64,000 nt of DNA, from positions 2,211,001-2,275,000 of the forward strand of contig NW_024067666.1 of NCBI RefSeq assembly GCF_009389715.1. Reading direction: 5' to 3'. Below are positions 8,201 through 32,949 of this stretch, in pieces. Numbering within the stretch: the first letter of the stretch is position 1; each line of letters starts with the position of its first letter. The position numbers and the translations under genes are program-made. Source of the DNA: Phoenix dactylifera (lineage: Eukaryota; Streptophyta; Magnoliopsida; Arecales; Arecaceae). A model generated the notes under the pieces. That model searched no databases. It was not told the origin of the DNA and saw only the letters and a program-made list of their open reading frames with translations.

Positions 8201-11200
8201 ACCAAATGAGTTTTTTTTTTTTTGTTATTTTATAATATCTGTCATTATTTCTAGATGCTTCCTATGCACTCTCATGTCTAGAGCTTTGGTTTTTCTACTA
8301 TTGCATCAAGAAAAGATGCAGTCTCTAGATAAAAATTATTGAAAATTACAGATGTGATCATCACTGTTATAAACTTTTATTCATTTTTGCCATAAGGATA
8401 TGTTTTTTTCATTTTTGAAGCTGTACTGAATCAAAATAGTTGGTGATCCATAGATATTTATATTTTGTCAGTCGAATGAAATAGTATTTTATGAAATTGG
8501 AGATATTTTTATTCAACTTTAGGGGACAATTCTTGTTCTTATGCTCAAGAGATGGATCCCAAGCATCTTCGTAAGAGAGATAATGAGATCAACTGAAAAT
8601 ATTTATAATGAAATTTATTATTGTCATGTGAACTCTCGTGGCACTTTTTTAGTTTCTAACTTAAAACCGTCAGCGCTGCTTCTCCAAACTTGAACTATTG
8701 TGCGCTTTTAACATGCTTATTGTTGTGGGGAATTCTAGGAAGAAAAATATGAGAATATAATCTTCAAGTTAGAAAAGAAAGAGTATTAGTATTTGATAGA
8801 ACATATTCACATGCATAGTACAAGTTGCACCAGAGATTATTAGTGTAGACTTGCATCATGCCATGTAGGAGGACCAGCATGTGAGATAAGTTAATTAATA
8901 TAGTTTTGGAGTTATGAACAATACCAAGCCCTAGGCCAGTATTATTTCTAAGAAAACCAATTTATATTGGAAAATAATTGAGTAAAGGACTCTCTTTGGT
9001 CTTTTATTTTATGGAGAATATCCATGCAAAGGATGTAATTTGAGATCTTAGTAATGTATACGAGCCTGTAGGCACAAATGTTAGAAATAGTACTGGCTGG
9101 ACAGCTTTTAAGTGCTAAAATCGTATATCAAGGGTTAACCTTAGTCTTTGTGTAATTTTACTTGCCACCGATGATTTTTACTTGCAATGTCAAGTAAACT
9201 TACTTCAGAAAGAGCAGAAGTGGACAGTGTAAGGCATATATCAACATAAAAGTATTACTTTGCTTTGAGAAGGGAAGAACTAGATCTTTTGGCTACATTA
9301 GCAAATAGTTTACTGGCTATAGAGGGATGGCGAGTCAGAAGGTGGTCCTATAACTATACCCGGGCTCAGTGGCGGAGCCAGTCATTCACCCAAGTAGAGG
9401 CAGTAATAGCATCTGATAATCAATGACAATCTATGGGTTAATCTACAAATTATCATAATTGCATACAAGCCAAGCATGAATGTCAATATAATTCTTTTTT
9501 TTGTTTTTTTTCATTTTTTTAATTTCCAGCACCATTCTAGGTACATGAGTTGGAAGAATATTTAGGAATACCCATAGATGATCTCTAGAAATCTGAAGAT
9601 TTTATAGGAAAATAGATTTTAACTTAGCATATAAGAGTTCTTTCTTTAAGAGTTTTGGTCATGGTATGCGCACATGTTCTAATATCACCATCTGGATAGC
9701 ATTTAGACTGTCTATGTTTCAACTATAAGCCCGAAACGGTGCCACTAGAAGCATCAAACTGTTTCTCAAAAAGAAAGAAAAAGGAAAAGAAAATAAATAA
9801 GATTATTGCCTATGCTAATTAGTGATGCTTGTTCAGGCTTTCATTGCCCCTTCTTAAAATGCCCAATTGACAGTACTAATCTGTATGAATATCTCATAAG
9901 TGTGGATCCTTAAAATGCTTATTTATTACAATGATTGCTTTATTAAGAAACTATACTTAAATGTAGAGCATGTCCTGGTCTTGGGGGGCTTGGGGGCTTT
10001 GATTATGGTCCGAGGCCATGGCTTGCATTGTTGTGGGCCACTAATCCACTATACTTTCCCCAAAAAAAAAAGAATGGATGGGAGTCCCATACAGTGGCAT
10101 GCCATGCTATGTGGTTGGGATGGAGTAAATCGTTACAGATTCGGAGTCAGTTTAATTCTAAATTTGGATGAGGTAAATCTCTTCCAGTTGTTAATTCGAA
10201 TCTGAAGGGAGTAGATCATTTATATATTAGCATAAGTTGGTTAAATTCCCACTTTTCAGTGGTTGCAATCCATTAGTAAGATTTTCTAGACTTTGTAACT
10301 CACTGGCTTGATATCATTACCTTACATTTTTCTAATTAGATGTTATCAGCAAGGTCTGATTGATTTTGACTCCTGATCGCATGCATCTTCACTCATTCTG
10401 ACCTGCCTTGTCTGCCATTCTAATTGAGGTCTGAAAAGCATCCTTTGATGCTTGAGTTTACATTTTATATTCACAATTATTTTTCTGACAAGCTTTTTCA
10501 TGTTACAGTAAGTACAAGCTCTATGTATCTGACAATATCCTAACTTAATGAAGATGATTGCATAAAATGCAAGTTGTTTTGCTAACTGCCAAATATGTAC
10601 TAGTTTGAATTAACATCCTTCTAGATCTCTTCTAGACCGCCTTACAACTATCCTCCTATTATACCACATACTTTTTTTTTATTTAAAAGGTCAAGGCATA
10701 TGCAGTTCACCATATATTGCAGAATGTTACATCTATGTGTTAACTTTGAAGTCACTCTTTACATATTCAATGTTGTCAGCTAGCTGATTGAATTTGTTGA
10801 ATACTTATCTCAGGCCAAGTTCTTGTACAGAAGTATCCCTTTCTCTGAGGATGAACTTCAAGATATTAAGCTTATGGTACAGAGCAACATATATAACTAT
10901 CTTGGTATACTACTTGAGGGGCGTGAACGGTTTGAGGAAGAGAGTTTGGCTGAGAAAAGGAAAAACCAGCAACTACGTTCTTCAGGCACAAGTATGATCT
11001 CCTGCTAGTTTCGGTTATCTCTTTTACCATTTCTTCTATTAATTATCAAGAACAAGGTTTTTAGTGTCAGTATTGGACCTTGTACAAATAGTTCATTATA
11101 TTAGGTTGGGTTGGTACGGTACACTCCCATGTTGAAATATGGTATGCTCCTAAAGGAGACAAAATAGTTGACCATCTCTTGATACAATGTTGTTGCTAGC

Positions 11201-13361
11201 CCTTGTATCGTACCAATGCCTTATTGGGTCGGTACAATATGCCTGGTAATGGCGGGTATGGGTCGGTGAACCATTAAGATATTACTGTTCATCAACTTCT
11301 TCAAGTTTTCATTTCTTTATGGGCACATCAAGGCTGCGTATCCACCCTAGTATATGAATTCCATTGCTTTTGTCAATTGTTAGTTACTGAATATTGAAGC
11401 CCCAACATATAGTTGCTATGATGTATTGAAACTCAGCCATTGATATATCTATAGTCGGTAACTATATATTTGTGCAACATGGATGGGTAATTTGTCGTCT
11501 TTGCTACAATATGGATCCTAAATGGATGCCAAGGTGGTGCAATAGTTGTTCCTTTATGACGATCTCTTTATTAGGAAAGGACTGTTGGAGAGTTAGTATT
11601 GTTTCGAGACAGGATCAAGTTCAAACTAAAGAGGGCAAGAACCTAAAAAGGTTTAGGTGAAGCAAACATATAGGAAAATTTTCCTCCCATAGATTAGTTT
11701 TCTTAATTTAGTTGATTTGTATGGAATTGGGATGAACATGTGCTTTGAGATAATGACACTGGGGATATTTAAACGTCCCATGTTATGGACTCTGGAGAAT
11801 ATCTCAGAGAAGGGAAGTTGAGGATACTTAGAACCTTTAGATGCTCTATATCGGAAAATGGAAGGCCAGGAGGTGTATAGAACCTTAGATATGGGAACCT
11901 AATGGTGAATTCTTGTAAAGTCCTTCTAGTGATGCCTAATAGTTTCTATCAGTTAATGTTGAATGGGTATCTAAAAGAATTATGAGCGTTTGACTTGCTT
12001 GTTATGATGAGGAGAAGCTTGACAAATAACCGCTAATTGGTTATAGAGGCAATCAATGCTAGATGATGATGGCATTGGCATTAGTTATATCAACTGCATC
12101 TTCTTCACTTTTGTTTGAGGAAATCTTGTGTGCTTGTATATAAAACTTTTTTGCAGCTGTTTATCCTTTTTGATGTTGATTTAGAGTTTCTTTTAGAGAT
12201 GGATATTTTTGTCATCGTAGAAGGAGCGAAAAATTTGGGGCAAGACATGCTTTGGTGGACGAACCTCTATCCTTGCTGTTTAGGTCCTTTTCTTGACTTT
12301 TTTTGACTGGCCTCTCTTTTTTCAATGTGTTCCTCATAACAACCAAGGGTTAGGGATGTAAGAACTTCTAATTTTCATGTTTGCTACTTGCATATATGGT
12401 TAGAGAATGTCTTCTTAACTGCATTAGAGAATGTCTTTCAGACCATACCTCTAAATCATATCTGGTTGCAACATTGTCTTTGCAACTTGTGTGTTGCTTT
12501 TTTCTTGTTTTACTACCATATAAGCGTAAGTTAATTCATTCCAAGAGTATAGGTATTTTCTGTTATCTTGATTTTCATTTCTTATGTAGCATAGGCCAAT
12601 TTTATGAATCCTCATTTGCCAAGTTTATTTAGGGCCACTTCTGATGTTGTTTCAAGTTTCTCGTTCTCTTTCCTTACAACCTTCATCCAAGTTAACTAAG
12701 GTCTTCCTCTCATTTTCTGGCAACCTTCAACAAAGCAACTCTCGATACTGAAACGTTCTCAGATTTTTGTTGTACATGTCCAAACCATATTAATTGATTT
12801 TCCAACACTTTGTCCTTAATTATGCAATTCTTGCAACTCCTCAAATATATTCAATTTTTATTTTATCCTTTTTAGTTCTACCACACATCCTTCTTAACAT
12901 TCTCATTTCTATCATACTCAAGTTGTTTTCTTTTACTTTATTTTCTTGCATGTTATTTATTGCCTAGCACTCTGATCGATACAACATGGCAGAGTTTATT
13001 ATTGTTCTATAAATTTTTTCCTTAAGTTTTCAAGGTATATGCGTATCACATAATATTTCAGATGCACCTCTCCACTTCATCTAGTTAACTCAAATTCTAG
13101 TATATGTATCATCGTCTATCTTCCCGTTATTTTGTATGATAGATCCTAAATAATGTAATCATGTCATCTCTTGGTCATCAATTTTAATTAGTATCACATC
13201 TTCATTTCCATTCTAACTAAACTTACATCCATATACTTTGTCTTTGTTTTACTAATCTTTAAGCCCTTATCCTGTAAATTTATATTCCTTATACTCGCCT
13301 TTTCTATTCATATTTGTATACTAAAATCATGCACACTGGATTTTTGTATCTTGATTTAGTT

Positions 13362-13414
<53 letters not shown>

Positions 13415-16400
13415 CTTTGGGAAAAGAGAAGAAAGATCTGGCTGGTGGAGTTACAAAGTCGAGGTGGGCGTTGTGAGCACTGAACTGCTGCCAAGTTCAC
13501 ATACAGCTGGGTATCACGAAAAGCCATATTTATTTTCTTTGATCTGTCATCTTAATAAATTATTTCATGCTCAATAATAAAAAAATTCTGGTTTCTATTA
13601 ATGGATGCTCAGCTCTATCTTTTTCTTTTCTTTCTGTTTTAACTTCATATTTGTAAAGGATATTAAGTTATGCTTTGAACTTTTTCAATGTGGCTAATAT
13701 GATTCAAGACTGCTATTTAATTGCTCAAGAACCATATTAAAGGTAAATTTGTTAGCAGCAGGAAACAAGGAATTAGACGAACATGATGATACAACTGAGT
13801 ACTCCATTGGTCCAAGGCTGAAAGCATTTTCTGATTGGCTTCTCAAGGTTATGGCTTCTGGTAACCTAGAAGCTATTTTCCCAGCTGCCACTCGTGAATA
13901 TGCCCCATTAGTTGAGGAACTGTGGAATGATGCTGCTATTCAAGCGACATATAGGCGTAGAAGGGAACTACCACTGCTTCCTAGTGTTGCCAGTTATTTC
14001 TTAGAGCGGGTAATTAGCATTTCTGTTTCTTTTTCCCTGAATTATCTTCATAATACATTAAATACTCTGTACTCCTTAGCATATATGATTCTTATCGCTT
14101 CTTATTTTGGTGCATAGAAGTTTATCGTTGACCTCCCTCCATCTTTGTATATAAAAGGATATCTTGAATTATGGTTCAGTCAGTCTGTGTTTCATGTACT
14201 AATACGAAAGTAAAGTGTCTGAAGATGGTGCTAGTATGTCAACATAGGACAAGACTAAGATATCTGTAGGGCCGTAGTTGGATATAAGGACAATAAATCA
14301 GAAATCTTGATTGTTGGAACAATAGATATGGCCTGAAAGTTGAACATAAAAAAAAAGGGGGGGAGCCTTGAAAATGTTATGGCAAATGTGTAGGATTATG
14401 CATAGGGAACTATGAATCTAGGGTTTTATTGAATTTTAAAGGGAGTCTAGTAGTTTAGCTAACTATTATGTTACTGCTGAACTGAATTTGCTTTTAGTTG
14501 AACCATTGCTTGATGGGTCCCAGTTGCAACGATTGAATCTCAAATCCACGGTATTTTCACTTTTCATAGGATTTTGAAGTGATTTGAAGTATATGGAAGG
14601 ACAGGAGCGGTGCCCTTAAATAGAAAAGCTTGAAGTGGATTACTGCATGTAATCATTACCACCATATAGACCTAGCGCTGGAATGCGGGCGGGATGGGTC
14701 AGATTTCTATGCAGCCTGATCCCAACCCAAAAAAATTTCAGGCTTTAGGTTGCACTGAGAAGCTTGAAATTTCTTTCAAAACTTTGACTAGAGCCCAAAC
14801 CCGAGCTCTTCCAGGCTCCAATCCAAAGTGAGAGAGAGCGGAAAGAGGGCGTGGGGGAGAATAGTGAGAGGAGAGAGAGATCAAGAGGGAGAAGAAACAT
14901 TGGGGGGGGGGAGGGGAGAGAGATTGGGAGGGAGAGAGTAGATGGAGAGAGATCAGGTGGGACTAAGGAGAGAGAGGAGAGAGGGGGGGGGAGAGATTGG
15001 GTGGGAGAGGGAGAGGGAAGAGAGAGATTACGAGGGAGAAAGAGAGGGGAGAGGGAAGAGAAATTGGGTGGGAGTGATAGAGAGATAAAGGAGAGAGAGA
15101 TCAAGAGGAAGAGAGAGAGGAGTGGGGAGAGTGGAGAGGAAAGAGAGATCGGTGGGAGAGAGAAAAAGAGAGGGGAGAGATTGTGGGAGAGAGGAAGGGA
15201 GAGAGATCAGGAGGTAGAGAGGAGGGAGAGCAGAGAGGGGAGAGAGAACTGATCGGACCCATTGTCGGGCTTGGACCGGGCCTATCGTTGGGCTTGGACT
15301 TCCTGCCAGATCCAGGATGGGCCAAGTATAGAAAAAAATATCCAAATTCTTATTTATTATCTCATCAGAGTTTTCATAGAATAAGGTTCTATTAATTTAG
15401 TATAGCAAAAAATTTGCAGGATGTCTCATCCGTAGAAATACATATAAATATTGGATTATCCAGAAAATCGATTGATTCCTTCTTTTTTGTTGCTTTGTAA
15501 GAGTTCATATTATGGAGGAACGACAGAGACTATGAATCAATCAATAGATTTAATTCTTCAAATTATTAAGAAACAAAGGATCTGTTTTGTCATTTCTACG
15601 AATATAATATTTTAATTATGTTTACTGGATAACTTTCCAATTTGTATGTTAGGGAGTAGATCAAAGTTTCGCTATATGGAGTAAGAACTCAGCGGGACCT
15701 CGATGCCAACTTATAATTTATTCATACCTTATTTTTGCGGCCGAGCCTGACCTAAAGCCATCTCGCTTGACGGGCCTTGGGGTGGCCTGGGCCTATTTCC
15801 TCCTATATGTACACCCAATCAAAGAAGATCTTTACATGCAACCATTATATAGGTGGTAGATAAGTTCCTTGTTGCTGTAGGTGCACAAAACATAAAAGGG
15901 AAAGAAAACCTCTTTTCCCAAGGGGAAAGGTATAGGCTCCTGTTATGAGTTGTAAAATGGAATAGTGTACATTAGCTCTAACTTAAAGACTCCATGACAC
16001 AAGGTTATGAAAAGTAGAAGATGACTTCTTGATGACTGAGAGAAAAAATTTAGAATTTGAGTTTGCCATAAGTAAGCATACCTAAAGTATTCTTTAATTT
16101 AACCTAAATCCTAAAACCCTTAGATTTACTTAGCTGAGCCTATAAGTAAATTAGGACTTTAAGGCACCAATCCTACTCAAAGTCTATAAGCAACCACAAA
16201 AAAGCTCTTTGAATATGTGCGAAGATTATAGTAAGATAATAAAGTTAATAACCAGACCTGCTCTCCAAATAACTTGTGTCCTGAAATTGGTATAAACTTC
16301 CCCTGGTTGTATGGTTAAAACCTGGTCTTTCAATGATCAAATAGTCAATGCAACAAATCAGGACCACATTAGATGGAAAAGTTATTTATTTCATTATATT

Positions 16401-18278
16401 TGTTTTCCTTATAGGTATCTTAATTACATTCTTGAGGAAAAAGGGAAACTTAGCCAATCAAGTGCTTTTGTTTCTTTTATTTGCTCCATATAAGGGCACG
16501 ATGTTTTTATATATCAGTCAAAAACATGAAATTGGCCAATATTGCTATTGACTTTGGTGGAATTCACTAGCTAGAAAATGTTGATAAGAAGCGAGATTTT
16601 TAGTCAAATTTGTTGCATAGTCCCCCTTTCTGGTTAGATCTTGATGCTTGTCGTAATTGTTCACTGTCTTCTTCCTGTGATATCTACTTCCTTATTATCA
16701 ATTCACAGCAGACATAAGCTTCTAGGATTTTGTCTCCTGTTACATATCACATTATTCATCCCAATAAAAATAATTGGTTGATTGAAACTTGGTCTGTACA
16801 TGAAGTATTTGTAGTATCTTATTAATATTTTCAGAGGCTTCCATTTAATCTAAGAATGTTGTCGGTCATTTCTTCAGGTTGTTGATATATCTAGAGTGGA
16901 ATATGAGCCCACTGACAAGGATATCCTCTATGCTGATGGAATAACTTCATCTAATGGACTAGCATGCACAGATTTCTTTTCTTCACAATTGGCTGCTGAT
17001 GGAAGCGGCAATGATGATGCTGATCAGCAGGACACATTACTGATAAGGTTGACACACTGTCTGCACTCGGTGATTATAATAATGCATGCAGGATAGAGTT
17101 AAAATTTATCATTTGTTTATGCGGAGATTGGTTGATTACTGTAGTTAGATTTATAGTGTGTTGAAAGACGTGCACACTGTGAAAGAATATCCTCAACCCC
17201 TTACTCAAAGCATCAAGTACATTATTTACAAATAAAACCATCAGCTTTTCTTGTCTTGAGCAGCACAAGAGCCACTTGTTGTGCAAATAGTTCGCGCTTA
17301 AGAGGATTTGATGGAATCATGTCATTTCATCATCTCTATCAAAATTTTGACATCTTATCACAAAAATGAGACCAAAAGTTTTCTAAATGTGCAATAAGCA
17401 CACATTTAACATTTTTTTCTATGAGAAGTTTACAAGGGATTACACCTATGTATTCTAACTTTCTCCCCTAGCTGTATCTAGTTTGATGAGAAGTTTAAGC
17501 CCATTTCTGATGGAGATACACCATTATGTCTTGTTTAATGACCTAGATGGATAGTTTCTTGCGATTCAATGGTGCAAAGTTGGCGACTTCAGGAGCTTGA
17601 GTTACAACACATCATTGATTGCTCATTATTTAATTTTGACTTTCAGAATATGCTAAAGCTTGAACCTTTGAAATCTCTTTTTTTTTTTACAGGTATCAAC
17701 TCATCAGACTGCATGCAAAAGGCCTTGGAGAGAACTGCAAGTGGCTGGATATGTTTGATGATGTCAGGCTTGTTATCTTTTGTGTTGCCCTGAGTGACTA
17801 TGATGAATACTATGAAGATGCAAATGGAGTGGCTATAAACAAGATGTTGGAGAGCAAGAGATTCTTTGAGAGCGTCGTTGGTCATCCAAGCTTCTATCAG
17901 ATGGATTTTCTTTTGATACTCAACAAATTTGATCTGCTGGAGCAGAAGATAGACATGACCCCGCTTACCGTATGCGAATGGTTTGACGACTTCGATCCAG
18001 TTGTAAGTCGTCATCATTACAGCAACAGCCGCAGCATCAACAATTGTGCCACCATGGCGCAGCATGCCTTTCACTACATTGCTGTGAAATTTAAGAAGCT
18101 ATTTTGTTCTCTTACTGGGCGAAAACTATATGTTACACTAGCAAACGGGTTGGACTCGGATTCAGTAGATGTAGCACTCCGATATGCAAGAGAGATCATT
18201 AAGTGGGAGGATGAGAGGCTGGTGTTCAGCTCCAGTGAATCATTTTACAGCACCGAGCCGAGCTCGTATTCTCCCTAA
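5238..18278 (+). CDS. XLG: Extra-large GTP-binding protein (XLG), 8 exons
   Basis: Plant-specific atypical G-alpha. Family members pair with G-beta/gamma in immunity and development signalling at the plasma membrane and nucleus. Exons: 5238-6503, 6991-7128, 7208-7312, 7405-7590, 10814-10991, 13762-14009, 16878-17047, 17693-18278. Phases agree throughout, giving 958 aa, slightly longer than the usual 850-900. The N-terminal part carries an IPVAAV stretch typical of XLG1/2-type proteins, three 25-aa repeats (136-210), and a Cys-rich region with four CxxC pairs (289-334). The G-alpha-like part has a modified P-loop GYHGSGTST (553-561), helical-domain exons, and NKFD (841-844). The DVGGQ switch is absent: MFDDVRLV occupies that region, and the TCAT motif is replaced by a VTLANGLD stretch. 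Both changes are typical of XLGs and predict weak GTPase activity. Exon 6 has alternative in-phase acceptors. Introns 4-6 are 2.8-3.2 kb and repeat-rich. The exact XLG1/2/3 class is uncertain. Confidence 0.95.
5643..5867 (+). repeat. 75-bp coding minisatellite in XLG exon 1
   Basis: Three consecutive 75-bp units encode 25-aa repeats of the form xSEGxxSSGxxGFSxExKEGEG followed by a short linker. The repeats sit in the poorly conserved acidic N-terminal region of the XLG protein. They keep the reading frame, and copy number could vary between alleles. Confidence 0.85.
7825..8015. repeat. GGTACGGTA-rich dispersed repeat in XLG intron 4
   Basis: Dense, partly self-complementary runs of CGGTATC, GGTACGGTA and TACCGGT-like words occur within intron 4. 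A diverged relative with GGTACGGTACA and GGGTCGGTACAA words lies at about 11100-11280 in intron 5. The sequence can fold back on itself. I cannot assign it to a named family. Confidence 0.5.
11100..11280. repeat. GGTACGGTA-rich dispersed repeat in XLG intron 5
   Basis: This shares GGTACGGTACA and GTCGGTACAA type words with the repeat at 7825-8015, in a more diverged form. It carries no coding signal. Confidence 0.4.
12690..13315 (-). pseudogene. Decayed LINE reverse transcriptase remnant (RTE-like)
   Basis: The minus strand inside XLG intron 5 retains scattered fragments of the 3' end of a plant LINE ORF in shifting frames. [13 protein letters not shown] corresponds to the usual SKTEYM-type block. 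Further on are traces of the LYGTECW region. Next comes [20 protein letters not shown], the RWFGHVQRR-type block, and finally a GRP-type tail near 12690. Many stops and frameshifts make it non-functional. Block order agrees with one copy inserted opposite to the XLG gene. Confidence 0.75.
13364..13412. repeat. (CT)n microsatellite in XLG intron 5
   Basis: An uninterrupted 49-bp TC/CT dinucleotide tract directly adjoins the upstream end of the LINE remnant. It is likely polymorphic. Confidence 0.95.
14827..15250. repeat. Homopurine (GA-rich) tract in XLG intron 6
   Basis: About 420 bp are almost entirely A and G on the plus strand (GAGAGA, GGGGGAG and GGGAGAGAGA words) with only scattered pyrimidines. 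Open frames on both strands across it are a by-product of base composition and not genes. Flanking GGGCTTGGACCGGGCC-type sequence at 15260-15320 suggests it arrived inside a repeat element. Confidence 0.85.
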
Positions 18279-20076: not shown

Positions 20077-20259
20077 TCATCCGGGCGCAAAACGATCCAT
20101 CAGCATGCACACGGTGGCGTCCGAGAGGATCACTTCCCTCCTCTCCTTAGCTTCAGTTCCATGCTGCTTTGCTAAAACAAGCTCTTCTTGTGGTTCGCCA
20201 TGTTCTCGCGCACATCGACGACCGCCCGATTCAACATTACCACTAGACTCGACATCTCC
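20077..20259 (-). CDS. Possible C-terminal exon of an unknown small plant protein
   Basis: On the minus strand a 60-codon frame runs from a TAG just above 20259 to TGA at 20077-20079. It ends in REVILSDATVCMLMDRFAPG. This frame has no ATG near its start, so it would need an upstream exon. An overlapping frame on the same strand does start with ATG but ends at a TAG near 20172. The dense GC and clean hydrophobic C-terminus look more like coding sequence than the surroundings. I do not recognise the family with certainty. If real, the gene would point away from the retroelement, whose nearest edge is about 0.66 kb upstream. Confidence 0.3.
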   Translation of the reverse strand, partial: GDVESSGNVESGGRRCAREHGEPQEELVLAKQHGTEAKERREVILSDATVCMLMDRFAPG

Positions 20260-20894
20260 CTATTCCTCTCTCTCGCTCTCTCTCCCTCTGAGTTGGCCTG
20301 TTTTAATGCTTTCTTTGTGAAGAATGCAATGGAGGCTTCCCACTTGGGTGTAAGCTCGTTTTTGTACAAGCACTGTATTAGTGGGATAGAAGGAAACCGT
20401 AGGTTCGAGGAACCTGGGGAGTCGACAGTTTGGACCTGGAAGCAAAGGTGGTTGGTTGGCTAGATTTTGTTTTGAGCGAGATGGGTGGGTCCGGATGGAA
20501 CAGCGTCCTCTCGTTTGCTTCTGTCGTGAGCGACGAGAGACCACGCAACCCGAAGGCCTAGCGGGAGACGGCGGGATTGCTTAGAAATATTCCGAGCCAG
20601 GATTTTAGGCCGAACCCTTAGGTCCCTTACCCGAGATCTCCATATGAATTCTATACCAAATCAACCAAATCTTAGGGCTTATGTTGTTTCCTCATAGGCC
20701 CAGTTGCAGAAATTCCGCATATGTGGGCTGTTTGGATTGCTAGCTCACTTGCTGGGTTGAGCCCAAAGTCCATGAAGTCTCTGAAAAGCCCAAAGTTCCA
20801 ATCTGCCAGGTTGAATTCCTCAACCATTCCCTCCTCCTCCCTGTTTTCCTTTTGATTTTTATAGATTTTCTTCTTAGCCTTCTTCAAAGCTTTG

Positions 20895-20922
20895 CTTTCC
20901 AACCCTAACCCTAACCCTAACC
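20895..20922. repeat. Telomere-like (AACCCT)n tract, target of retroelement insertion
   Basis: CCAACCCTAACCCTAACC-type repeats (about four units) end exactly at the left boundary of the retroelement. The sequence resumes after its right boundary as TAACCTAAAG, so the empty site was a continuous AACCCT tract. Such tracts act as telo-boxes in plant promoters and 5'UTRs or can be interstitial telomeric repeats. Confidence 0.85.
20918..20922. repeat. Target site duplication, left copy (TAACC)
   Basis: TAACC immediately precedes the left terminal TGTTG of the reversed LTR. It is repeated at 26682-26686 directly after the right LTR. A 5-bp duplication is the normal product of retrotransposon integrase. 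Confidence 0.9.
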
Positions 20923-21859
20923 TGTTGCTGGAAATTGGACCCGGGGGCGGCCGTCGGCTGAGGAGGAGGAGCTCCGGCGCGAGAATGGCGGGTGGCGGTC
21001 CGTCGGCGGGCGGCGTCCTCCGGGAGACCTGCAAGAAGCCGGTGGCCGGGCTCCCCGGCGCCGGCCCTCCGATGCTTAAGTCAGAGGGGGGCTTAATTTT
21101 GGAGAAGGAGATGTAGTTCGTATGTAGCAGTCCAAGCCAGAAAATTAGAGTTAGGAGCCCTCCTCCCCCGGGAGGAAGAAGCCTCCCTTTTTATAGGGAG
21201 GGTGGCAGGGTTACCTGTGATGTGACTGGGCGAATTAATGGGTTACCGTCACGATTGGATGTGGACGTGTGAAGTAATGAGTTGCCGTGGATGGCCCGTT
21301 CCCATCATGGGAGGAGATGGCGCGTAGCCAGAGCTTGCTTGTGGCGCGCAGTGCAGTACATTCTTGGAATGGTGAGGCGTTGACAGTCGTAGCAGGGTAT
21401 GGTTCCTGATTGATATGTCGTGGCGTGGCTGGCAAGCAAAGCATGGTGCGGTGAGGCTGCTGCAGGGCATGGCCGCAGCATACAGATGACGAGGTCGGCC
21501 TTCTGAGGTCAGCTCGACCTTCTGTGCTCGGCCTTCTGAGCTCGGCAGCCTTCTGAGCTCGGCCTCGGCAGCCTTTTGAGCTCGGCAGCTTTCTGTGCTC
21601 GGCAGCCTTCTGAGCTCGGCTCGGCCTATGAGCTCGGCCTTCTGTGCTCGGCAGCCTTCGGAGCTCGGCCTCGGCAGCCTTCTGAGCTCGGCTCGGCCTA
21701 TGAGCTCGGCCTTCTGTGCTCGGCAGCCTTCTGAGCTCGGCCTCGGCAGCCTTCTGAGCTCGGCAGCCTGCTGTGCTCGGCAGCCTTCCGAGCTCGGCTC
21801 GCTGTCGGATTTGGGTGCTTTAATTGTATTTGTGGGGTGGTCCATTTTTCCCCCCAACA
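20923..21859 (-). repeat. LTR copy C, reverse orientation
   Basis: This 937-bp copy is the reverse complement of LTRs A and B. It starts TGTTGCTGG (complement of the CCAGCAACA end) and finishes CCCCCAACA (complement of TGTTGGGGG). It pairs with LTR A as an inverted repeat of about 911 bp with an 83-bp spacer. On the minus strand it carries the TATAAAAAGGGAGG promoter block at about 21185-21200. Confidence 0.93.
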
Positions 21860-21917
21860 CTACCCCCCGACTTCCGAGTTCGAGCTGCTTTTTGGCTCGG
21901 GCGAAGGAAGTAGTCCA
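21860..21917 (-). repeat. Reversed internal fragment next to LTR C
   Basis: These 58 bases are the reverse complement of 25688-25745, the internal sequence with the polypurine tract just before LTR B. This shows that LTR C was a 3' LTR still joined to its own upstream interior. The junction with LTR A occurs at a shared CA dinucleotide (21916-21917). Confidence 0.88.
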
Positions 21918-22827
21918 AATACAATTAAAGCACCCAAATCCGACAGCGAGCCGAGCTCGGAAGGCTGCCGAGCACAGCAGGCTGCCGAGCTCAGAAGGCT
22001 GCCGAGGCCGAGCTCAGAAGGCTGCCGAGCACAGAAGGCCGAGCTCATAGGCCGAGCCGAGCTCAGAAGGCTGCCGAGGCCGAGCTCCGAAGGCTGCCGA
22101 GCACAGAAGGCCGAGCTCATAGGCCGAGCCGAGCTCAGAAGGCTGCCGAGCACAGAAAGCTGCCGAGCTCAGAAGGCTGCCGAGGCCGAGCTCAGAAGGC
22201 TGCCGAGCTCAGAAGGCCGAGCACAGAAGGTCGAGCTGACCTCAGAAGGCCGACCTCGTCATCTGTATGCTGCGGCCATGCCCTGCAGCAGCCTCACCGC
22301 ACCATGCTTTGCTTGCCAGCCACGCCACGACATATCAATCAGGAACCATACCCTGCTACGACTGTCAACGCCTCACCATTCCCAAGAATGTACTGCACTG
22401 CGCGCCACAAGCAAGCTCTGGCTACGCGCCATCTCCTCCCATGATGGGAACGGGCCATCCACGGCAACTCATTACTTCACACGCCCACATCCAATCGTGA
22501 CGGTAACCCATTAATTCGCCCAGTCACATCACAGGTAACCCTGCCACCCTCCCTATAAAAAGGGAGGCTTCTTCCTCCCGGGGGGGGGAGGGCTCCTAAC
22601 TCTAATTTTCTGGCTTGGACTGCTACATACGAACTACATCTCCTTCTCCAAAATTAAGCCCCCCTCTGACTTAAGCATCGGAGGGCCGGCGCCGGGGAGC
22701 CCGGCCACCGGCTTCTTGCAGGTCTCCCGGAGGACGCCGCCCGCCGACGGACCGCCACCCGCCATTCTCGCGCCGGAGCTCCTCCTCCTCAGCCGACGGC
22801 CGCCCCCGGGTCCAATTTCCAGCAACA
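21916..22827 (+). repeat. LTR copy A, forward, 5'-truncated
   Basis: This 912-bp copy lacks the first ~26 bp of the LTR (the TGTTGGGGG end) but has an intact CAACA end. It contains many GAGCTC and AAGGCTGCCGAG words and two copies of a 72-bp unit (22001-22072, 22073-22144). A TATA box lies in CCCTATAAAAAGGGAGG near 22550. Open frames through the GAGCTC repeats are compositional and not genes. Confidence 0.92.
22001..22144 (+). repeat. 72-bp direct repeat inside the LTR (two units)
   Basis: Two adjacent 72-bp units begin GCCGAGGCCGAGCTC and differ at very few positions. They are repeated in LTR B and in inverse in LTR C. They lie upstream of the TATA box in the U3-type region, where such repeats often act as enhancers (inference). 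Confidence 0.8.
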
Positions 22828-22829
22828 GT

Positions 22830-22847
22830 TGGCGCTAGAGGAAGGGC
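22830..22847 (+). promoter_or_regulatory. Primer binding site of the LTR element
   Basis: TGGCGCTAGAGGAAGGGC begins two bases after the CAACA end of LTR A, the expected position for a tRNA primer site. It is not the initiator-Met site. The TGGCG start would pair with a tRNA ending CGCCA, but I cannot name the tRNA. Confidence 0.7.
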
Positions 22848-22860
22848 CCGAGTCGTGACC

Positions 22861-24303
22861 ATGAAGCTAAGGAGCAAAGGGGCCTCCAATGCCTCCCGGC
22901 GTCCCGCACCAAGTCCTAGACACTCAGTCCAGAACTCGCCACCAAGGCCTCCGGCGGATCAAGTCCCTGAAGTCCAACCAGAGGAGTTCAACCTGCTTGT
23001 TCAACAAGTACAAGCACTCACTGTGGCCGTTCGAGGCCTACAGCAAGTAGAAGACCAGCCTCTACTCCCTCCTCACAACCATGAGTCCTCAGGACGCCGC
23101 TCGCAACATCATTTTTCTGTAGAGCGTCGCCACCACCAAAGCTCCCACCGAACTCGACCATCGAGCCGGGAGGGCTTGTCGCGCATCCATTATCCTGCGA
23201 GCTCGCGCCGAAGCCTGACGCCTCGAGCTCGGGAGCACCCATCTGAGGCGGGGCCTGCCCCATGCCGAGCTGCAACAAGAGTCCCACCCGAGCTCGGCAG
23301 AAAGGTCGAGAAACTCGAGCGGCAGATCGAGGCGCTCCACAGCCAGAAAGCAAGGCGTGAAGATGACTTTGAGTTCACCACCAAGTCACCTTTCTCTCGC
23401 CAGATCGAAGATGAGCCGGTCCCACCGAGGTTCAAAATGCCTCAGATAGAGCCCTACAACGGGACCACCGACCCCCTTGACCACTTGGAGAGCTACCGAG
23501 CCCTTATGGCATTGCAAGGGTCCTCGGAGGCCGTGCTCTGCAAAGCCTTCCCTGCAACCCTCCGAGGAGCGGCTCGGCTTTGGTTTTCCGGTCTGAAGCC
23601 GAGCACTGTGTCCTCCTTTGAGCAGCTCGGCAGGCAGTTCGCTGTCAACTTCGCTGCCAGCCGACGCCAGCGGCGAACATCAGATTCTCTCCTCAATATC
23701 AAGCAAAAGGAAGGAGAGTCCCTTAAAGACTACATCGACCGTTTCACCGCTGCAACGTGGGAGGTTCGCGATCTCGACCAGTCAATTGCAATGTCAGCAT
23801 TGAAGACTGGAGCTCGGTCCTACAAATTTGTCTTCTCGATTGAGAAGAGCTTCCCTGCCGACTTTGTTGAAATGTTGGCCCGAGCTCGCAAGTACGCCAA
23901 GGCTGAAGAAGCCATGGCCTCTCGGCGGGAAGCAGCCAAACGACCTGCCAAGATGCAAAAGAAGCACCTCGAGGAGCGCTCCCAACTAAGCAGCAGATTC
24001 CCATGGCACGAGGAGAATCCTCCTCGGCCCAAAAGTCCAGCTCGGCAGAGGTTTTCCCTCCAAAAATTTGAGGAATACACTCCCCTCACATCCACCCGAG
24101 CCGAGATCCTCATGGAGATTGAGGGTCAGGGTTACCTCCGACCTCCCCCAAAAACATGGCCGTCAGAGTTGCAGAAGCACTCGAAGAAGTACTGCCGCTT
24201 CCACCGAAATTACGGCCACGACACGGAAGATTGCTACCGGCTCCGTGACGAGATCGAGGCACTCATCCGCCGAGGTCGACTGGGTCGGTTCGTCCGTGAC
24301 TAA
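22861..24303 (+). CDS. gag: Retrotransposon Gag protein
   Basis: The structural coat protein of the retroelement is intact over 480 residues. I chose the ATG at 22861 because the frame upstream offers only GTG. The N-terminal third is basic and Ser/Pro/Arg-rich. The core has the plant Ty3/gypsy gag domain, with PYNGTTDPLDHLESY followed by AFPATLRGAARLWFSGL and the SLKDYIDRFTAATWEV block. The C-terminus carries a zinc-binding-like CRFHRNYGHDTEDCYRL motif. It is followed by a stop and a degraded protease region, so Gag would be made alone. An intact gag in a gutted element suggests mobilisation by a related autonomous partner. Confidence 0.92.
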   Translation: MKLRSKGASNASRRPAPSPRHSVQNSPPRPPADQVPEVQPEEFNLLVQQVQALTVAVRGLQQVEDQPLLPPHNHESSGRRSQHHFSVERRHHQSSHRTRPSSREGLSRIHYPASSRRSLTPRAREHPSEAGPAPCRAATRVPPELGRKVEKLERQIEALHSQKARREDDFEFTTKSPFSRQIEDEPVPPRFKMPQIEPYNGTTDPLDHLESYRALMALQGSSEAVLCKAFPATLRGAARLWFSGLKPSTVSSFEQLGRQFAVNFAASRRQRRTSDSLLNIKQKEGESLKDYIDRFTAATWEVRDLDQSIAMSALKTGARSYKFVFSIEKSFPADFVEMLARARKYAKAEEAMASRREAAKRPAKMQKKHLEERSQLSSRFPWHEENPPRPKSPARQRFSLQKFEEYTPLTSTRAEILMEIEGQGYLRPPPKTWPSELQKHSKKYCRFHRNYGHDTEDCYRLRDEIEALIRRGRLGRFVRD

Positions 24304-24369
24304 AAGGGGGGAGCCAGAAGAACGGGACCCTGAGCTCCCTTTATGAAGACCAAAAGGGTGTTGAAACCC

Positions 24370-24708
24370 CTCATAGCCATGCTGTAGTTATTGCAAAGTC
24401 TGACGTAAAAGGACTCGTGGATAATAAAAGCACTACGGACATCTTGATGCCTTCCAATGGTTGTAAAACAACTGGAGAAAATGAGCAACCCTCCGGCCGG
24501 CTTCACAGAAGGTCTCATACCTGCGAAAGGGGTTCTCGGCCTGCTAATCACGGCTGTGCGCGCGCCCCGAGAAAGTACTGTGAAGCTAAACTTTTTTGTA
24601 GCCCAGGTCGGCTCGGCCTTCAACGCTATTATTGGCCGACCAGGCTCTCTCCGAGCTGCGGTCCCTATCTGCCACCCCCTCGTGCAATTCTCCACTAGCC
24701 GAGCTTAA
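24370..24708 (+). pseudogene. Degenerate retropepsin remnant
   Basis: Two frames together recall the protease segment that follows gag in this lineage. The first reads GLVDNKSTTDILM, where the usual active-site block is DNGSSADIL, so the catalytic Gly is replaced by Lys. After a frameshift the second continues with LIPAKGVLGLLITAVRAPRE and then AFNAIIGRPGSLRAAV, the conserved YNAIIGRP block. A stop follows at about 24706. No reverse transcriptase is found downstream. Confidence 0.8.
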
Positions 24709-24972
24709 CATGGAGAAGAAGACGCTCAATATAGCTCCTATATACTACATATCAACGACTCTGTGGCCTTGGGGGGCAGTGCCGCAGCCCAAAACTCAAC
24801 GCCTACCTCCTAAGGGTCTCCAACGACTCTCCGCCGGTGCTGAGCTAAGTCCTGAGGGACTTCGAAGCTCGGGAATCGTCAAAATGCCTACAAAAGGTAC
24901 GAGACGTCACTTCGGCTTTAAAATAATTTCAATATTCAATATATTCCCAGGTCGGAGAAGGCCAAAGCTGAC

Positions 24973-25552
24973 CTCCGAATATCTACATCTCCAACGTCGC
25001 CCTGATCTGAGTGGGGGCGCACGGTCGCCAACGGACAAGGTCCATCGTCTCCGGATATCTACATCTCCAACGTCGCCCTGATCTGAGTGGGGGCGCACGG
25101 TCGCCAACGGACAAGGTCCATCGTCTCCGGATATCTACATCTCCAACGTCGCCCCGATCTGAGTGGGGGAGCACGGTCGCCAACGGACGAGGTCCGTCGT
25201 CTCCGGATATCTACATCTCCAACGTCGCCCCGATCTGAGTGGGGGCGCACGGTCGCCAACGGACGAGGTCCGTCGTCTCCGGATATCTACATCTCCAACG
25301 TCGCCCCGACCTGAGTGGGGGCGCACGGTCGCCAACGGACAAGGTCCGTCGTCTCCGGATATCTACATCTCCAACGTCGCCCTGATCTGAGTGGGGGCGC
25401 ACGGTCGCCAACGGACAAGGTCCATCGTCTCCGGATATCTACATCTCCAACGTCGCCCCGATCTGAGTGGGGGCGCACGGTCGCCAACGGACAAGGTCCG
25501 TCGTCTCCGGATATCTACATCTCCAACGTCGCCCCGATCTGAGTGGGGGCGC
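24973..25552 (+). repeat. 76-bp tandem array in the LTR element (7.6 units)
   Basis: Seven complete units start at 24973, 25049, 25125, 25201, 25277, 25353 and 25429, with a partial unit from 25505. Each starts CTCCGGATATCTACATC and contains GAGTGGGGGCGCACGG. Units differ by a few bases such as GTCCATCG versus GTCCGTCG. The overlapping frames on both strands that repeat every 76 bp are artefacts. The array lies in the 3' untranslated part between gag/pr and LTR B. Confidence 0.97.
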
Positions 25553-25724
25553 TGCTGAGTCGACCACAAGCCAAAGAAGGCCGCTGAGTCAACCTGGAGC
25601 ACTTAACTCCAACTGCATTAGAGGTACATCCTACTTGGCACGTACATCTCTATACATATTTGGCTATATTACAGGATGATCGACGACTGGACTACTTCCT
25701 TCGCCCGAGCCAAAAAGCAGCTCG

Positions 25725-25745
25725 AACTCGGAAGTCGGGGGGTAG
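25725..25745 (+). promoter_or_regulatory. Polypurine-type tract before LTR B
   Basis: The purine-rich stretch GGAAGTCGGGGGGTAG directly precedes the TGTTG start of LTR B, the position expected for the plus-strand primer. It is interrupted by pyrimidines, so it is a weak match. Confidence 0.55.
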
Positions 25746-26681
25746 TGTTGGGGGAAAAAATGGACCACCCCACAAATACAATTAAAGCACCCAAATCCGA
25801 CAGCGAGCCGAGCTCGGAAGGCTGCCGAGCACAGCAGGCTGCCGAGCTCAGAAGGCTGCCGAGGCCGAGCTCAGAAGGCTGCCGAGCACAGAAGGCCGAG
25901 CTCATAGGCCGAGCCGAGCTCAGAAGGCTGCCGAGGCCGAGCTCCGAAGGCTGCCGAGCACAGAAGGCCGAGCTCATAGGCCGAGCCGAGCTCAGAAGGC
26001 TGCCGAGCACAGAAAGCTGCCGAGCTCAGAAGGCTGCCGAGGCCGAGCTCAGAAGGCTGCCGAGCTCAGAAGGCCGAGCACAGAAGGTCGAGCTGACCTC
26101 AGAAGGCCGACCTCGTCATCTGTATGCTGCGGCCATGCCCTGCAGCAGCCTCACCGCACCATGCTTTGCTTGCCAGCCACGCCACGACATATCAATCAGG
26201 AACCATACCCTGCTACGACTGTCAACGCCTCACCATTCCCAAGAATGTACTGCACTGCGCGCCACAAGCAAGCTCTGGCTACGCGCCATCTCCTCCCATG
26301 ATGGGAACGGGCCATCCACGGCAACTCATTACTTCACACGCCCACATCCAATCGTGACGGTAACCCATTAATTCGCCCAGTCACATCACAGGTAACCCTG
26401 CCACCCTCCCTATAAAAAGGGAGGCTTCTTCCTCCGGGGGGGGAGGGCTCCTAACTCTAATTTTCTGGCTTGGACTGCTACATACGAACTACATCTCCTT
26501 CTCCAAAATTAAGCCCCCCTCTGACTTAAGCATCGGAGGGCCGGCGCCGGGGAGCCCGGCCACCGGCTTCTTGCAGGTCTCCCGGAGGACGCCGCCCGCC
26601 GACGGACCGCCGCCGCCATTCTCGCGCCGGAGCTCCTCCTCCTCAGCCGACGGCCGCCCCCGGGTCCAATTTCCAGCAACA
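25746..26681 (+). repeat. LTR copy B, forward, complete
   Basis: This 936-bp LTR begins TGTTGGGGG and ends CCAGCAACA. It differs from LTR A at only a few places, such as the length of the G run near 26436 and a CCACCC/CCGCC difference near 26610. A TATA box lies near 26412. It is followed by the TAACC duplication. Confidence 0.95.
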
Positions 26682-26686
26682 TAACC
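26682..26686. repeat. Target site duplication, right copy (TAACC)
   Basis: TAACC directly after LTR B matches 20918-20922. Confidence 0.9.
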
Positions 26687-26969
26687 TAAAGTGGATCTCG
26701 ATGTCTCTAATCCCGATCCACCCCCTTCTTCCCTTCTACATATGTTCAGCACCACTTTAATACTTGCATTTTATGCATTGCCTTCTGTATCGGATTTTCA
26801 TGTGGTAAGGGTTCAGTAGGAGTGGAGTTCAAAAATATGGTAGTTTTGGAAGATTATCAAGAAAGCACCTGATGGTATCTCACTGTAATGATTAGAATTT
26901 AGGTTGATTTTGGCCTCTTAAAATAGTTTTTAAATTTTTTATTTGTCTAATGTGTTCTAAAGATTATCG

Positions 26970-27000
<31 letters not shown>

Positions 27001-29535
27001 CCCTTTTTTGCATTGGAAAACATCTTTCATTTAGCAAGCAAGGAGTGCTTAAACAAATACAAGCTTGAAAAGATGAGCTGAAATGGTCCAACCATGTGTA
27101 AGATATGGTAAATTTGAGTTTAAAAAGTTATCTAAGTTTGAAAAAGATCCCATAGGCTGTTTAGTTGGCACGTCTATAAAAAATGAGCTCATATCAGATT
27201 TAAAATCACTAAGTTTTATAACAACTTTCTTCTAATTGCTTTCCACTAAAATTTTGCTAGAAAATAAACCTGAAAAACAAGTTTCGTGATAAAATTGTTG
27301 TATTTCTTCCTTATTATAATTAACTTGATAAGGTGAGTATCGTAGAGCTCTTATACTACTTTGAACTAATAGACAAGCAACTTGTTTGACACACAAATTC
27401 TGCTCCAAACATACCTATGAAACCTTGTCCCCATTACTAGCTAGCTTTCTAAGTCCTTATTTGCTAAATAATTTCCATGAAGGTTTACCAATAGTACTAT
27501 TGCAAGCTTTTTCAACTGAAGTGGAATGAATGCAGACAACTTATATCATCTACTTATGCCATATACCGTAATCATGTTTTAAACATAAGTGATACATTTA
27601 TTTATGATTAATGTAAGGATATGGACATATGCAATCTTGATGGCTCATAACCAAGTAGGCAACCATTGCAGATTTATAAGAAGCTTTATATATCTGCATA
27701 TCGATAGAAAGCCACAAGAAAAGCAACTGTGCAAACTCTAGATATGGCACTTGTTAAGAAAGAAATTTGTAGCCACAAGGTTTGTTTTTCATTAGCTATG
27801 ATAATATGCTTATATACGCTATAAAAGGGATCGGTATCTCTACATCAAAGTGATCAATATCTTTACATCAAAGAAATTATATGGTCCGTATAAAGAAAAT
27901 CTCTACAAATATGTACATAGTTGGCAAAATCGAGGAATGATTTCCATCACTTGAGATTATATAGCTCTCTGCCAAATCCAATTGCATGGTTGGCTGAGAA
28001 AATCAAGAAATGATTTTCATCCGTGGGATTGTATAGCTGCCCATATTTGTCTAATCTAATGCCAAGAGAAGTAATTATGATTTCCATCAAATCAAGTAAT
28101 GATTTCCATCAACACTTTTGAGCCACTTTTGAAAGGCATTATAGTTTGGCTAGTGCAAATTGGAACGGTCTCACTTACGTGCGAACTTATAGTTTGGTTT
28201 ATATGTTTGGCATGGTCTAGATAATGTGATTCTGCATGGTTTGTCTTGGTTTGGATTTTGAAAATAATATGGCCTATGCGGTTTGGTTTTGCTTGATACC
28301 TATGATTTTTCTGAGGATATTGCCTGTACGAGACTGAATGGTACGATCCTACTTTAAAATAGTGATGCACTTATCTGCAAGATCTTATATGATTAGTATC
28401 TTTTCGTTGGATGTTTTCAAACAGGTTTAGGAAAGCAGATATTGATACAGGTACAGGCAAACTGTGGGTACCATAACAATGGACAGCCACAAGGGTTAGC
28501 ACATTATGAGGGGATCCAGGTTGATTACTAAATAATGGGCATTTATCTCTATAATCTTCTTCCAGGTTGATACTTAATTTCTGTATAATCTTATTATAAT
28601 ATCATGTTGCCTTTTTTTTCCTGTAGCTTTGCAGTTCAGCATGCTGGATTTTATATCTGTATGATTGTCTGTGCGTGCTGTTTCTTAGGCTTCTGATAGA
28701 GCAAGTGATTATTTAGTATGTGAGACTTTTATTTCTTTTCTAAACAGGAATTTGGCTATCAATTTTTTTTTTTTAGCTTTGAGAATGAGGGGATCCAACA
28801 AGTTTACCTTATTATTAGAGAAAGAGGAAAGAATAGAAGATAATCTGTAAGACAACTCTAATTTTTAACTGTAAAGCTATATATTCTGCAAAAATATTTG
28901 ATTGTCCATAAAATTATTCAATTCTTGTGGTAGCAATTTTATATTTTTTAATATGTATATATATGTTAAAGAATATATATATATTAATGATAATTTACAA
29001 TTATAAACTTTGATTATAAAAAATCTAATTATTTCTTAAGAAATGGCCTTATTTTTTCTTCTTATTTATCATGTATGATTCGATCATTACATACAGTAAC
29101 CAAGTCTGAAATTAGCATGTCTTTTTATCTTTAAACTTTTGATGCAGGATCGATGCTCAACTTGTGTCTGTCTTAACCTCAAAACATATAAAATATGGTT
29201 AATTTTATTGTGAAACAAGGTATTATTGCAAAAATTGATAAATATAACCAACTATCATTAAGAATTTCATCTTTGCTCTAGTTTTTGTTGTTTTTGATAT
29301 TGAGACAGTCCTTCCTTATCGATAGGCAATGAGTTTTGGATTTGAATTGATGTCGTTTCATTGATTCTTTCTAAAAATTTTATTTTAATTAGAATTTAGT
29401 TATTCATAATGCATGATGATCCCTTTTTAAGACTAAATGGTTAAAACGCCCAACTCATAATTGGCACTTAATGACTAACCTATAAACTAAAAAAAAAGAA
29501 AGGTCACACAAATTGATGTGAGATGCCACATTTCG
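26687..29535. other. Intergenic, no gene; poly-C tract and local repeats
   Basis: No coding region was recognised. A 28-base C run lies at 26970-26997 and is continued by T and CCCCC then T6. Between 27930 and 28115 the word AATGATTTCCATC recurs about four times in diverged copies, a decayed local tandem repeat. The remainder is AT-rich. Confidence 0.55.
26970..26997 (+). repeat. Poly-C homopolymer (28 bases)
   Basis: Twenty-eight consecutive C residues are followed by TCCCCCTTTTTT. The complementary strand is a G-quadruplex-capable poly-G run. Length may be imprecise because homopolymers are error-prone. Confidence 0.9.
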
Positions 29536-31634: not shown

Positions 31635-32546
31635 CGATTGGTTTTGCACAAAATATGTGTAGATATGAAGCAATACGTATGAGTTGAAATTCTAATTTTA
31701 TCTCCAGATGTGTTGACCAACGTAACTATAATTTTTTGCCATTATTTCAATGAAACATATGCGTGTTTTACTATATTTTCAATTGTTGAGAGTGAAGAAT
31801 TCTTGCAGAAACTATTCAAGCGTTCAAATTTCCATCACCATAATCATCTTTGACATGAAAAATAATTGATGTAAAGAGCAACATGTAAGCGGAGCAAATT
31901 TTGTGATGGATGTGCTGAACACTCCAATTAATTGTGTTTTCCCTGTGCGACAGCGATATGCCAAGCACCTCATGAGTTCAAGATTGCATATTAATTTGGA
32001 GGTAAATCTTTGAACAGATGCAAAATAAAATATTTACTTAAGTGGAAATGAATTGAGTATGATGATAAAAAATCTTGCTTGCACCCGTGTCATGAAGTAG
32101 GGCACGAAGGGTATTTACATTGCTATGTGAAAGGGTGTAACATCAATTATAGGTGTCAACATTATTAATTACTTCTCCACGCATCAAAATTCCAAAAGGA
32201 TATATATATAGACGGTGCAAAGGCCTTCAAAAAAGTCCTCTAATATATAGTACTCTTAATATCACTCTCTTCAATTAAGGATCCTTCATCTATATTGATG
32301 TAGAGAAATAATGGCCATAATGTATATGCCATGAAGATGGCATCACATAGTAGGGAATAAGGGATGGTGAATTCAAGAGGCTTTTCCTTTTCAGATGCTG
32401 CATTAATAGCTCAATTCCCTGTTATTTTTATCATATACATTGTTATATGAGGTTAATGATTTATCATTTTCGTATTTCTAAATTTTTAAATTTTTTATTT
32501 TTTTCAATATATATAGGTTTCCAATTAATACTTCTAGTAGTACTAG

Positions 32547-32949
32547 TATAACAACTCAGGATCTCATCCAAAAAAACTTGTCGAAAGATATTATTTGGGT
32601 TACTTAATCATATATAAGCACCTAATATCTACTCAGCGAATAATCGATGTGGGATTAAACACACGTCTGTAGTCCTCGTCAGGCTAAGAGTTCAAATCCA
32701 TTTAAAACTAATCGCAAGTATCACAATCGACTCATGGTCAGCCCCAATAAATTTATATTGCAGTGTTTCCTAGTCTACATAGGTTATGGACCGGATCTGC
32801 TCTGATACCATTTGTAACAGTCCACAATCTCACCCAAAAAGACTAGCCGGAAGGTATTATTTGAATTCATTATTCATGTATAAGTATCCAAGATCTACCG
32901 AGCGAATATCCGATGTGGAACTAAACATACGCTCGTACGGGTCCTCACA
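32547..32949 (-). mobile_element. TRIM retrotransposon (copy 2)
   Basis: Same family and orientation as the copy at 1445-1883. The right LTR (32813-32949) is 137 bp, and the left LTR starts at 32547 with TG decayed to TA. About 40 bp around the left LTR/interior junction are deleted. The tRNA-Met primer site (minus-strand TGGTATCAGAGCAG) lies at 32797-32810, two bases from the LTR. Flanks are ACTAG (32542-32546) and GCTAG (32950-32954), a 5-bp duplication with one mismatch. LTRs are more diverged than in copy 1, so this copy is older. Confidence 0.88.

Follow-up and report, generated by a model that had tools for sequence, protein, structure and literature searches.

The window, a 64,000-nt stretch of the Phoenix dactylifera assembly GCF_009389715.1 (contig NW_024067666.1, positions 2,211,001 to 2,275,000 of the forward strand), carries at 20923–26681 a gag-only LTR retroelement in which three LTRs lie inside one 5-bp target-site duplication (TSD; TAACC). 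From left to right, the element is composed of a complete inverted LTR, 56–58 bp of inverted interior from the side of the polypurine tract (PPT), a 5′ LTR without its first 27–29 bp, a probable primer binding site (PBS), gag, tandem repeats, a PPT-like tract and a complete 3′ LTR (Table 1). On the left and on the right, the element is bounded by the same LTR 3′ (U5) end. Read in reverse complement, the inverted LTR starts TGTTGGGGGG and ends CCAGCAACA. The source match of the adjoining inverted 57 bp directly precedes the 3′ LTR, and the 5′ LTR starts at the equivalent of nt 29 in the 3′ LTR (936 bp); the loss is given as 27–29 bp because the CA overlap at the internal junction can be assigned either way. 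A (CCCTAA)3 run (20903–20920) extends into the left TSD copy, so the target was slightly repetitive. The sequence-only reading had described a single TAACC duplication around the whole element and a 2-bp CA microhomology at the junction, and both were found again; its 58 bp of reversed polypurine-side interior fell within the range of 56–58 bp, and its truncated junction LTR was confirmed as such, with the missing part (stated as ~26 bp) corrected to 27–29 bp.

Table 1. Features of the three-LTR element, with positions in the window.
Feature	Position	Strand	Basis or remark
TSD, left copy (TAACC)	20918..20922	.	sequence; overlaps end of (CCCTAA)3 run
Complete inverted LTR, 937 bp, U5 (3′) terminus outermost left	20923..21859	-	
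Inverted element interior with polypurine tract, 57 bp	21860..21916	-	exact comparison: identical to reverse complement of 25689-25745
Internal junction, inverted interior/5′ LTR, 2-bp CA overlap	21916..21917	.	read from sequence
5′ LTR, 911 bp, without first 27–29 bp; TATA-like CCCTATAAAAA at 22551	21917..22827	+	
Probable primer binding site TTGGCGCTAGAGGAAGG, directly after 5′ LTR	22829..22845	+	position and sequence
gag ORF, 482 aa, PF03732 Retrotrans_gag	22855..24303	+	
Tandem array, 76-bp repeat, limits approximate	24973..25552	+	
Polypurine tract-like AAGTCGGGGGGTAG	25732..25745	+	sequence
Complete 3′ LTR, 936 bp	25746..26681	+	
TSD, right copy (TAACC)	26682..26686	.	sequence

The gag ORF was matched to its Pfam family with an E-value of 3.8e-13, and the best three matches of the gag protein search were all from Phoenix dactylifera. 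No Pfam match beyond gag was obtained in seven further element ORFs, five of them downstream of gag (some short ORFs were left out), and the element is read as non-autonomous, its own reverse transcriptase and integrase not having been found in the scanned ORFs. As in an LTR retrotransposon, the direct LTR pair has TG...CA ends, except that the TG end was lost in the 5′ copy. The sequences next to the LTRs fit a candidate PBS and PPT in position and sequence. The element probably belongs to Ty3/Gypsy; no pol was found in this copy to show the order of reverse transcriptase and integrase.

The inverted 994 bp were aligned to the 3′ side of the element (99.2% over 995 columns) and to the 5′ LTR (99.5% over 911 columns), a match far above chance. 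The outermost 69 bp are 100% complementary (arms 20923–20991 and 26613–26681), and to this extent the two outward-facing U5 termini are identical, as had been claimed; over their full length the two complete LTRs differ, in 7 of the 911 shared columns, while the inverted and 5′ LTRs differ in 5 and the 5′ and 3′ LTRs in 4. By these counts the three LTRs are about equally young. The variants lie at LTR nt 284, 493, 596, 691–692, 698 and 869–870. Private changes numbered 4 in the inverted LTR, 1–3 in the 3′ LTR and 0–1 in the 5′ LTR, a change private to the 5′ LTR being indistinguishable in a three-sequence comparison from one shared by the inverted and 3′ LTRs. Depending on which of three counting schemes was used, the private share of the inverted LTR was 4/5, 4/7 or 4/8; the corresponding chance probabilities for a single given branch are 0.045, 0.17 and 0.26. 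In a column of G-run length (LTR nt 692), the inverted and 3′ LTRs stand together against the 5′ LTR. The inverted arms, 467 nt each, are separated by a spacer of just 83 nt at the PPT/U3 boundary and are near-perfect, not perfect, because a variant at LTR nt 284 falls within them.

The explanation we favour, at about even chances, is a single integration of an aberrant cDNA in which the minus-strand 3′ end mis-primed plus-strand synthesis inside U3. A strand-switch cDNA is favoured because one TSD encloses three LTRs with an exact LTR 3′ end at each outer terminus, and because the inverted segment corresponds in content and polarity to early minus-strand DNA, the left 994 bp matching in layout the 5′ portion of a minus-strand cDNA (U5-R-U3 and PPT in reverse, then 56–58 nt of interior). 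We infer the following order of events and identity of the priming molecule. Minus-strand cDNA would have stalled just beyond the PPT, 56–58 nt into the interior, and RNase H would have stripped the RNA, freeing the stalled 3′ end (...CCA) to pair by 2 bp (CA:TG) with U3 nt 28–29 of minus-strand DNA, either its own (fold-back) or that of a co-packaged sister. Plus-sense synthesis, primed there instead of at the PPT, would then have crossed U3-R-U5 and gone on to copy the PBS held by the tRNA, producing a stand-in for plus-strand strong-stop DNA. A complete minus strand would have received this product in the second (PBS) transfer, which needs the PBS still present beside the 5′ LTR. Further extension would have yielded a blunt linear cDNA with U5 at each end, and integrase supplied in trans would have joined both U5 ends to a staggered target, leaving a normal 5-bp TSD. 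The structure resembles a rare error of copying, frozen in place, more than a new kind of mobile element.

As to the template in this mis-priming, the close spacing of the inverted arms at the PPT/U3 boundary is what fold-back predicts. When 18 TG sites within the terminal 260 nt of the putative nascent strand were compared, the one used (21831) tied for second place in constrained folding energy, which is modest support. Single-strand folds near the junction were not clearly better than those of shuffled sequences (z of -1.25 and -1.22 as DNA, -0.09 as RNA), and stalling caused by a stable fold was not supported, with 19/200, 27/200 and 94/200 shuffles folding at least as well. Self fold-back predicts an inverted LTR identical to the 5′ LTR at birth, yet the inverted LTR carries 4 private changes, which weakly favours a sister template or two joined cDNAs; the G-run column also counts against the mis-priming account.

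The main rival, possible but in our view less likely, is that two cDNAs were end-joined. Either a truncated cDNA (LTR plus 57 bp) and a nearly complete one would have been joined before integration, or an intasome would have taken the U5 ends of two cDNAs, whose free inner ends were trimmed and joined by microhomology-mediated repair. The CA overlap and the 27–29 bp lost at the inner U3 end resemble such joining, of which a 2-bp microhomology is just as typical, and the inverted LTR is the most privately changed of the three, as if from a distinct parent, a difference not significant in two of the three counts. One partner, however, would have to be broken within 57 bp of the PPT in an interior of 2,918 bp (~2% by hand estimate, if breaks are uniform) and the other to have lost fewer than 30 bp.

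A replication template switch within a normal insertion would have passed from the start of the 5′ LTR (TGTTG) to the inverted end of the 3′ LTR (TGTTG), copied 994 bp and returned near LTR nt 28–29 via CA; we consider it improbable. The TSD alone cannot discriminate here because such a switch would keep it, and a perfect 5-bp inverted TGTTG is common to both LTR ends (10 of the first 12 bases match); the single G-run column is likewise in its favour. The exact LTR terminus would nevertheless have to be hit, a coincidence of ~1 in 600, because inverted microhomology of 5 bp is available at 600 of the 1,124 positions nearby (5-mers also inverted in the 3′ LTR region: 119/218 in the flank, 481/906 in the 5′ LTR). 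An inverted LTR copied late from the 3′ LTR should also resemble it more than the 5′ LTR does, yet the inverted LTR is the farther of the two (7 columns against 4), and an age fit was best with copying at time zero, copying at mid-life of the element costing 2.5–3.0 log units and at 90% of its life 9.7–12.6 across three counting schemes; late copying was thus disfavoured. The earlier proposal of a cDNA rearrangement that preceded or accompanied integration, with integrase then joining two U5 ends, is the best-supported reading on the anatomy and on the LTR comparison against a late event. Strand switch and end-joining had both been offered in that proposal; our choice of the strand switch is a leaning.

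Palindromes are a known source of misassembly, and a fold-back chimera or misjoined repeats might be suspected; an assembly or read artefact is very improbable, as the left flank does not mirror the right one and abuts the LTR terminus precisely where the TSD copy matching that of the right side lies, and the inverted LTR has variants of its own. LTR elements replicate through a transcript from 5′ LTR to 3′ LTR, from which reverse transcription rebuilds two direct LTRs. A normal R-to-R transcript from this 5′ LTR would not include the inverted LTR, so ordinary retrotransposition should yield a normal element. A family propagating stably with inverted U5/U5 ends, an idea raised in the sequence-only reading, found no support and is, on mechanistic grounds, hardly credible. 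Two independent insertions were rejected on the single TSD around everything, no second TSD being seen at the inner junction.

If real, the structure is a natural record of a plant LTR-element integrase pairing two U5 ends with a normal 5-bp TSD, and of a mis-primed plus strand that could still reach completion and integration. It also provides a searchable signature (inverted LTR, PPT, short interior and U3-truncated LTR within one TSD), by which the frequency of strand-switch cDNA integration could be measured, and a near-perfect 467-bp LTR palindrome on a chromosome is a plausible trigger of small-RNA silencing. A wider reading, which we think unlikely, is that minus-strand cDNA ends regularly stray-prime the plus strand in U3, that U5/U5 elements headed by an inverted LTR recur in plant genomes, missed by LTR finders because direct LTRs are sought at the outer ends, and that hairpin RNA from read-through of the palindrome silences the family. 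Under that reading, read-through from a host promoter across the near-perfect 467-bp arms and 83-nt spacer would give the hairpin.

In viral_contigs, where plant DNA is not expected, the junction had 0 exact matches, and 12 stretches fitted a pattern but none was confirmed as a gag relative. With the junction-spanning ORF (residues 1–75) as protein query, one of 71 candidates matched, P0199; its similarity is to the ordinary LTR reading frame, and it lacks the inverted part. No LTR element combining an integrase-type TSD with a U5/U5 inverted LTR appeared among the literature matches listed, within the limits set by the phrasing of the search.

In PMC8786324, a locust Gypsy subfamily is said to have an inverted LTR pair. 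DIRS-1 tyrosine-recombinase retrotransposons (PMC5633606) share the inverted LTR orientation but encode a tyrosine recombinase and contain an internal complementary region. The present element instead carries gag, probable PBS and PPT sequences, direct LTRs as an internal pair and an integrase-type TSD of 5 bp; no recombinase domain was found in its eight scanned ORFs. Ty1 autointegration with inverted 2-LTR circles (PMC4751563) is likewise a cDNA-level inversion giving inverted LTRs, but there the cDNA inserts into itself, joining an LTR terminus to an internal site in circles, whereas this product is linear and integrated; an autointegration product was rejected since neither LTR terminus is present at the junction (21916/21917). 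The closest precedent found is the set of Angela, Squiq and Opie complexes with three LTRs and one TSD, attributed to abnormal template switching in reverse transcription (Sabot & Schulman 2007; PMC1950507). The date palm element is like them in its three LTRs, single surrounding 5-bp TSD and similar outer LTRs; theirs have direct LTRs and two complete interiors, whereas this element has an inverted extra LTR, a second interior of just 56–58 bp and U5 at both outer ends.

Repeats and ORFs of the gag-only LTR retroelement were sought over 20500-27200, and its three LTRs, one of them an extra, complete, reversed copy at the left end (the inverted LTR), were aligned with explicit coordinates. As the sequence-only reading had described, a single 5-bp duplication (TAACC) surrounds the whole structure and two U5 LTR ends face outward at 20923 (+) and 26666 (-); the LTR 3'-terminus pattern (16 bases with Ns) occurred three times in 64 kb (expected 0.05), the third match being at 22812 (-). 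By direct sequence comparison, the inverted 57-bp piece was the exact reverse complement of 25689-25745. The 2-bp CA claimed for the inner junction was present at 21916-21917 and is compatible with either side, so the inverted interior spans 56-58 bp and the 5' LTR deletion 27-29 bp; reversed interior and missing LTR start were thus recovered, with a range replacing the fixed 58 bp and a deletion larger than the ~26 bp proposed.

Features of the three-LTR element and its target site
Feature	Position	Remark
Left TSD copy	20918-20922	TAACC
Inverted LTR	20923-21859	
TATA-like, inverted LTR	21188	facing left, into flank
Inverted interior	21860-21916	
5' LTR	21917-22827	
TATA-like, 5' LTR	22551	
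PBS-like sequence	from 22829	
gag ORF	22855-24303	
76-bp tandem repeats	about 24973-25552	
PPT-like sequence	25732-25745	
3' LTR	25746-26681	
TATA-like, 3' LTR	26408	
Right TSD copy	26682-26686	TAACC

The gag ORF matched PF03732 (E 3.8e-13). A protein search, scoring only the 7,994 candidates having most words in common with the query, found 78 matches, the top three from Phoenix dactylifera (65-78% identity, 51-60% query coverage) and the fifth-best from Elaeis guineensis (45%), which makes a palm the probable host. Because seven further element ORFs, five of them downstream of gag, gave no Pfam match, this copy is read as non-autonomous and would require enzymes in trans. It is putatively a Ty3/Gypsy element.

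The enclosure of all three LTRs by one TSD argues for a single integration. Strand mis-priming during reverse transcription was given about even confidence as the origin. In the 5'-to-3' direction, the leftmost 994 bases match the expected minus-strand cDNA after first-strand transfer plus 56-58 nt past the PPT, and are followed by plus-sense LTR starting at nt 28-30, then PBS and remainder. A minus strand would have stalled 56-58 nt past the PPT, and its end would have served as primer instead of the PPT, 27-29 nt into U3, on its own strand (fold-back) or a sister minus strand. This route would account for the U5 at both element ends, since each minus strand begins with U5, for the intact PBS, which second transfer requires, and for a palindrome centred on the PPT/U3 boundary (83-nt spacer). 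By constrained folding energy, the TG site used ranked joint second among 18 tried, and local folds were not clearly better than shuffles. The inverted LTR carried 4 of the 5, 7 or 8 changes (three counts), the chance of 4 on one given branch being 0.045, 0.17 or 0.26 by counting way; these changes may speak weakly against pure self fold-back.

Joining of two cDNAs is a possible, less favoured origin. Either route would agree with the proposal of a cDNA rearranged before integration, and exactness and LTR timing oppose a later event. Switching after integration is unlikely: the TSD alone is compatible with it, since the LTR ends have TGTTG in common in inverted orientation, but the 3' LTR region contains, in inverted form, 600 of the 1,124 5-mers of left flank and 5' LTR, so nothing would have directed a repair switch to an LTR terminus in particular. 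Over 911 common LTR columns, differences numbered 5 (inverted/5'), 7 (inverted/3') and 4 (5'/3'). Four columns separated the inverted LTR, three the 3' LTR and one the 5' LTR, this last being a G-run length equivalent to grouping inverted and 3' LTRs. A model of post-insertion copying of the inverted LTR from the 3' LTR fitted best at time zero, and half the element age cost 2.5-3.0 log units under three counting ways. The structure is probably genuine, an uncommon variant of a known error class with a mechanism that we infer, and an assembly or read artefact is very improbable. In standard LTR-element replication, the transcript starts in R of the 5' LTR and ends in R of the 3' LTR; since the inverted LTR falls outside it, normal new copies are expected, and the suggested family multiplying with inverted U5/U5 ends is scarcely credible. 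If read through, the near-perfect 467-bp palindrome arms (83-nt spacer) might, speculatively, yield hairpin RNA.

The insertion site holds (CCCTAA)3 (20903-20920), the sole tandem of at least two such units in the window; lone AACCCTA boxes lie elsewhere (e.g., 39343, 39349). A 28-C run in the right flank (26970-26997), 288 bp past the element, may mark a place where sequencing or assembly is unreliable. The inverted LTR promoter is directed at overlapping ORFs at 20175-20580, about 340-750 bp left of the element, where two minus-strand ORFs had no Pfam match. Farther left is an extra-large G-protein gene (5238-18278), whose first exon (5238-6563) has protein matches in Canna and other plants, several bearing the name extra-large guanine nucleotide-binding protein (120 of 425 matches listed), and contains three in-frame copies of a 75-bp unit (5646-5870). 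Two ORFs downstream of this exon match PF00503, one below threshold (30.9 versus the Pfam cut-off of 48.8 bits). A dispersed repeat family occurs at 1444-1883 and 32546-32949, about 31 kb apart (75-90% similarity to the reference copy), and 99-bp inverted arms (54484-54582/55887-55985; 90% complementary, 1,304 bp between) are possibly an unannotated transposon.

Word-based matching of open-licence PubMed Central papers gave no report of this exact arrangement among the matches listed. Autointegration is able to yield inverted 2-LTR circles, according to an excerpt of PMC4751563. DIRS-1 likewise has inverted LTRs and, as excerpted in PMC5633606, a tyrosine recombinase. The closest precedent found was the set of elements of Sabot & Schulman 2007 (PMC1950507; rice 1, maize 1, Triticeae sequences 2, Arabidopsis 0), attributed to abnormal template switching, which likewise have three LTRs and a single 5-bp TSD, but whose LTRs are direct, whereas here one is inverted.
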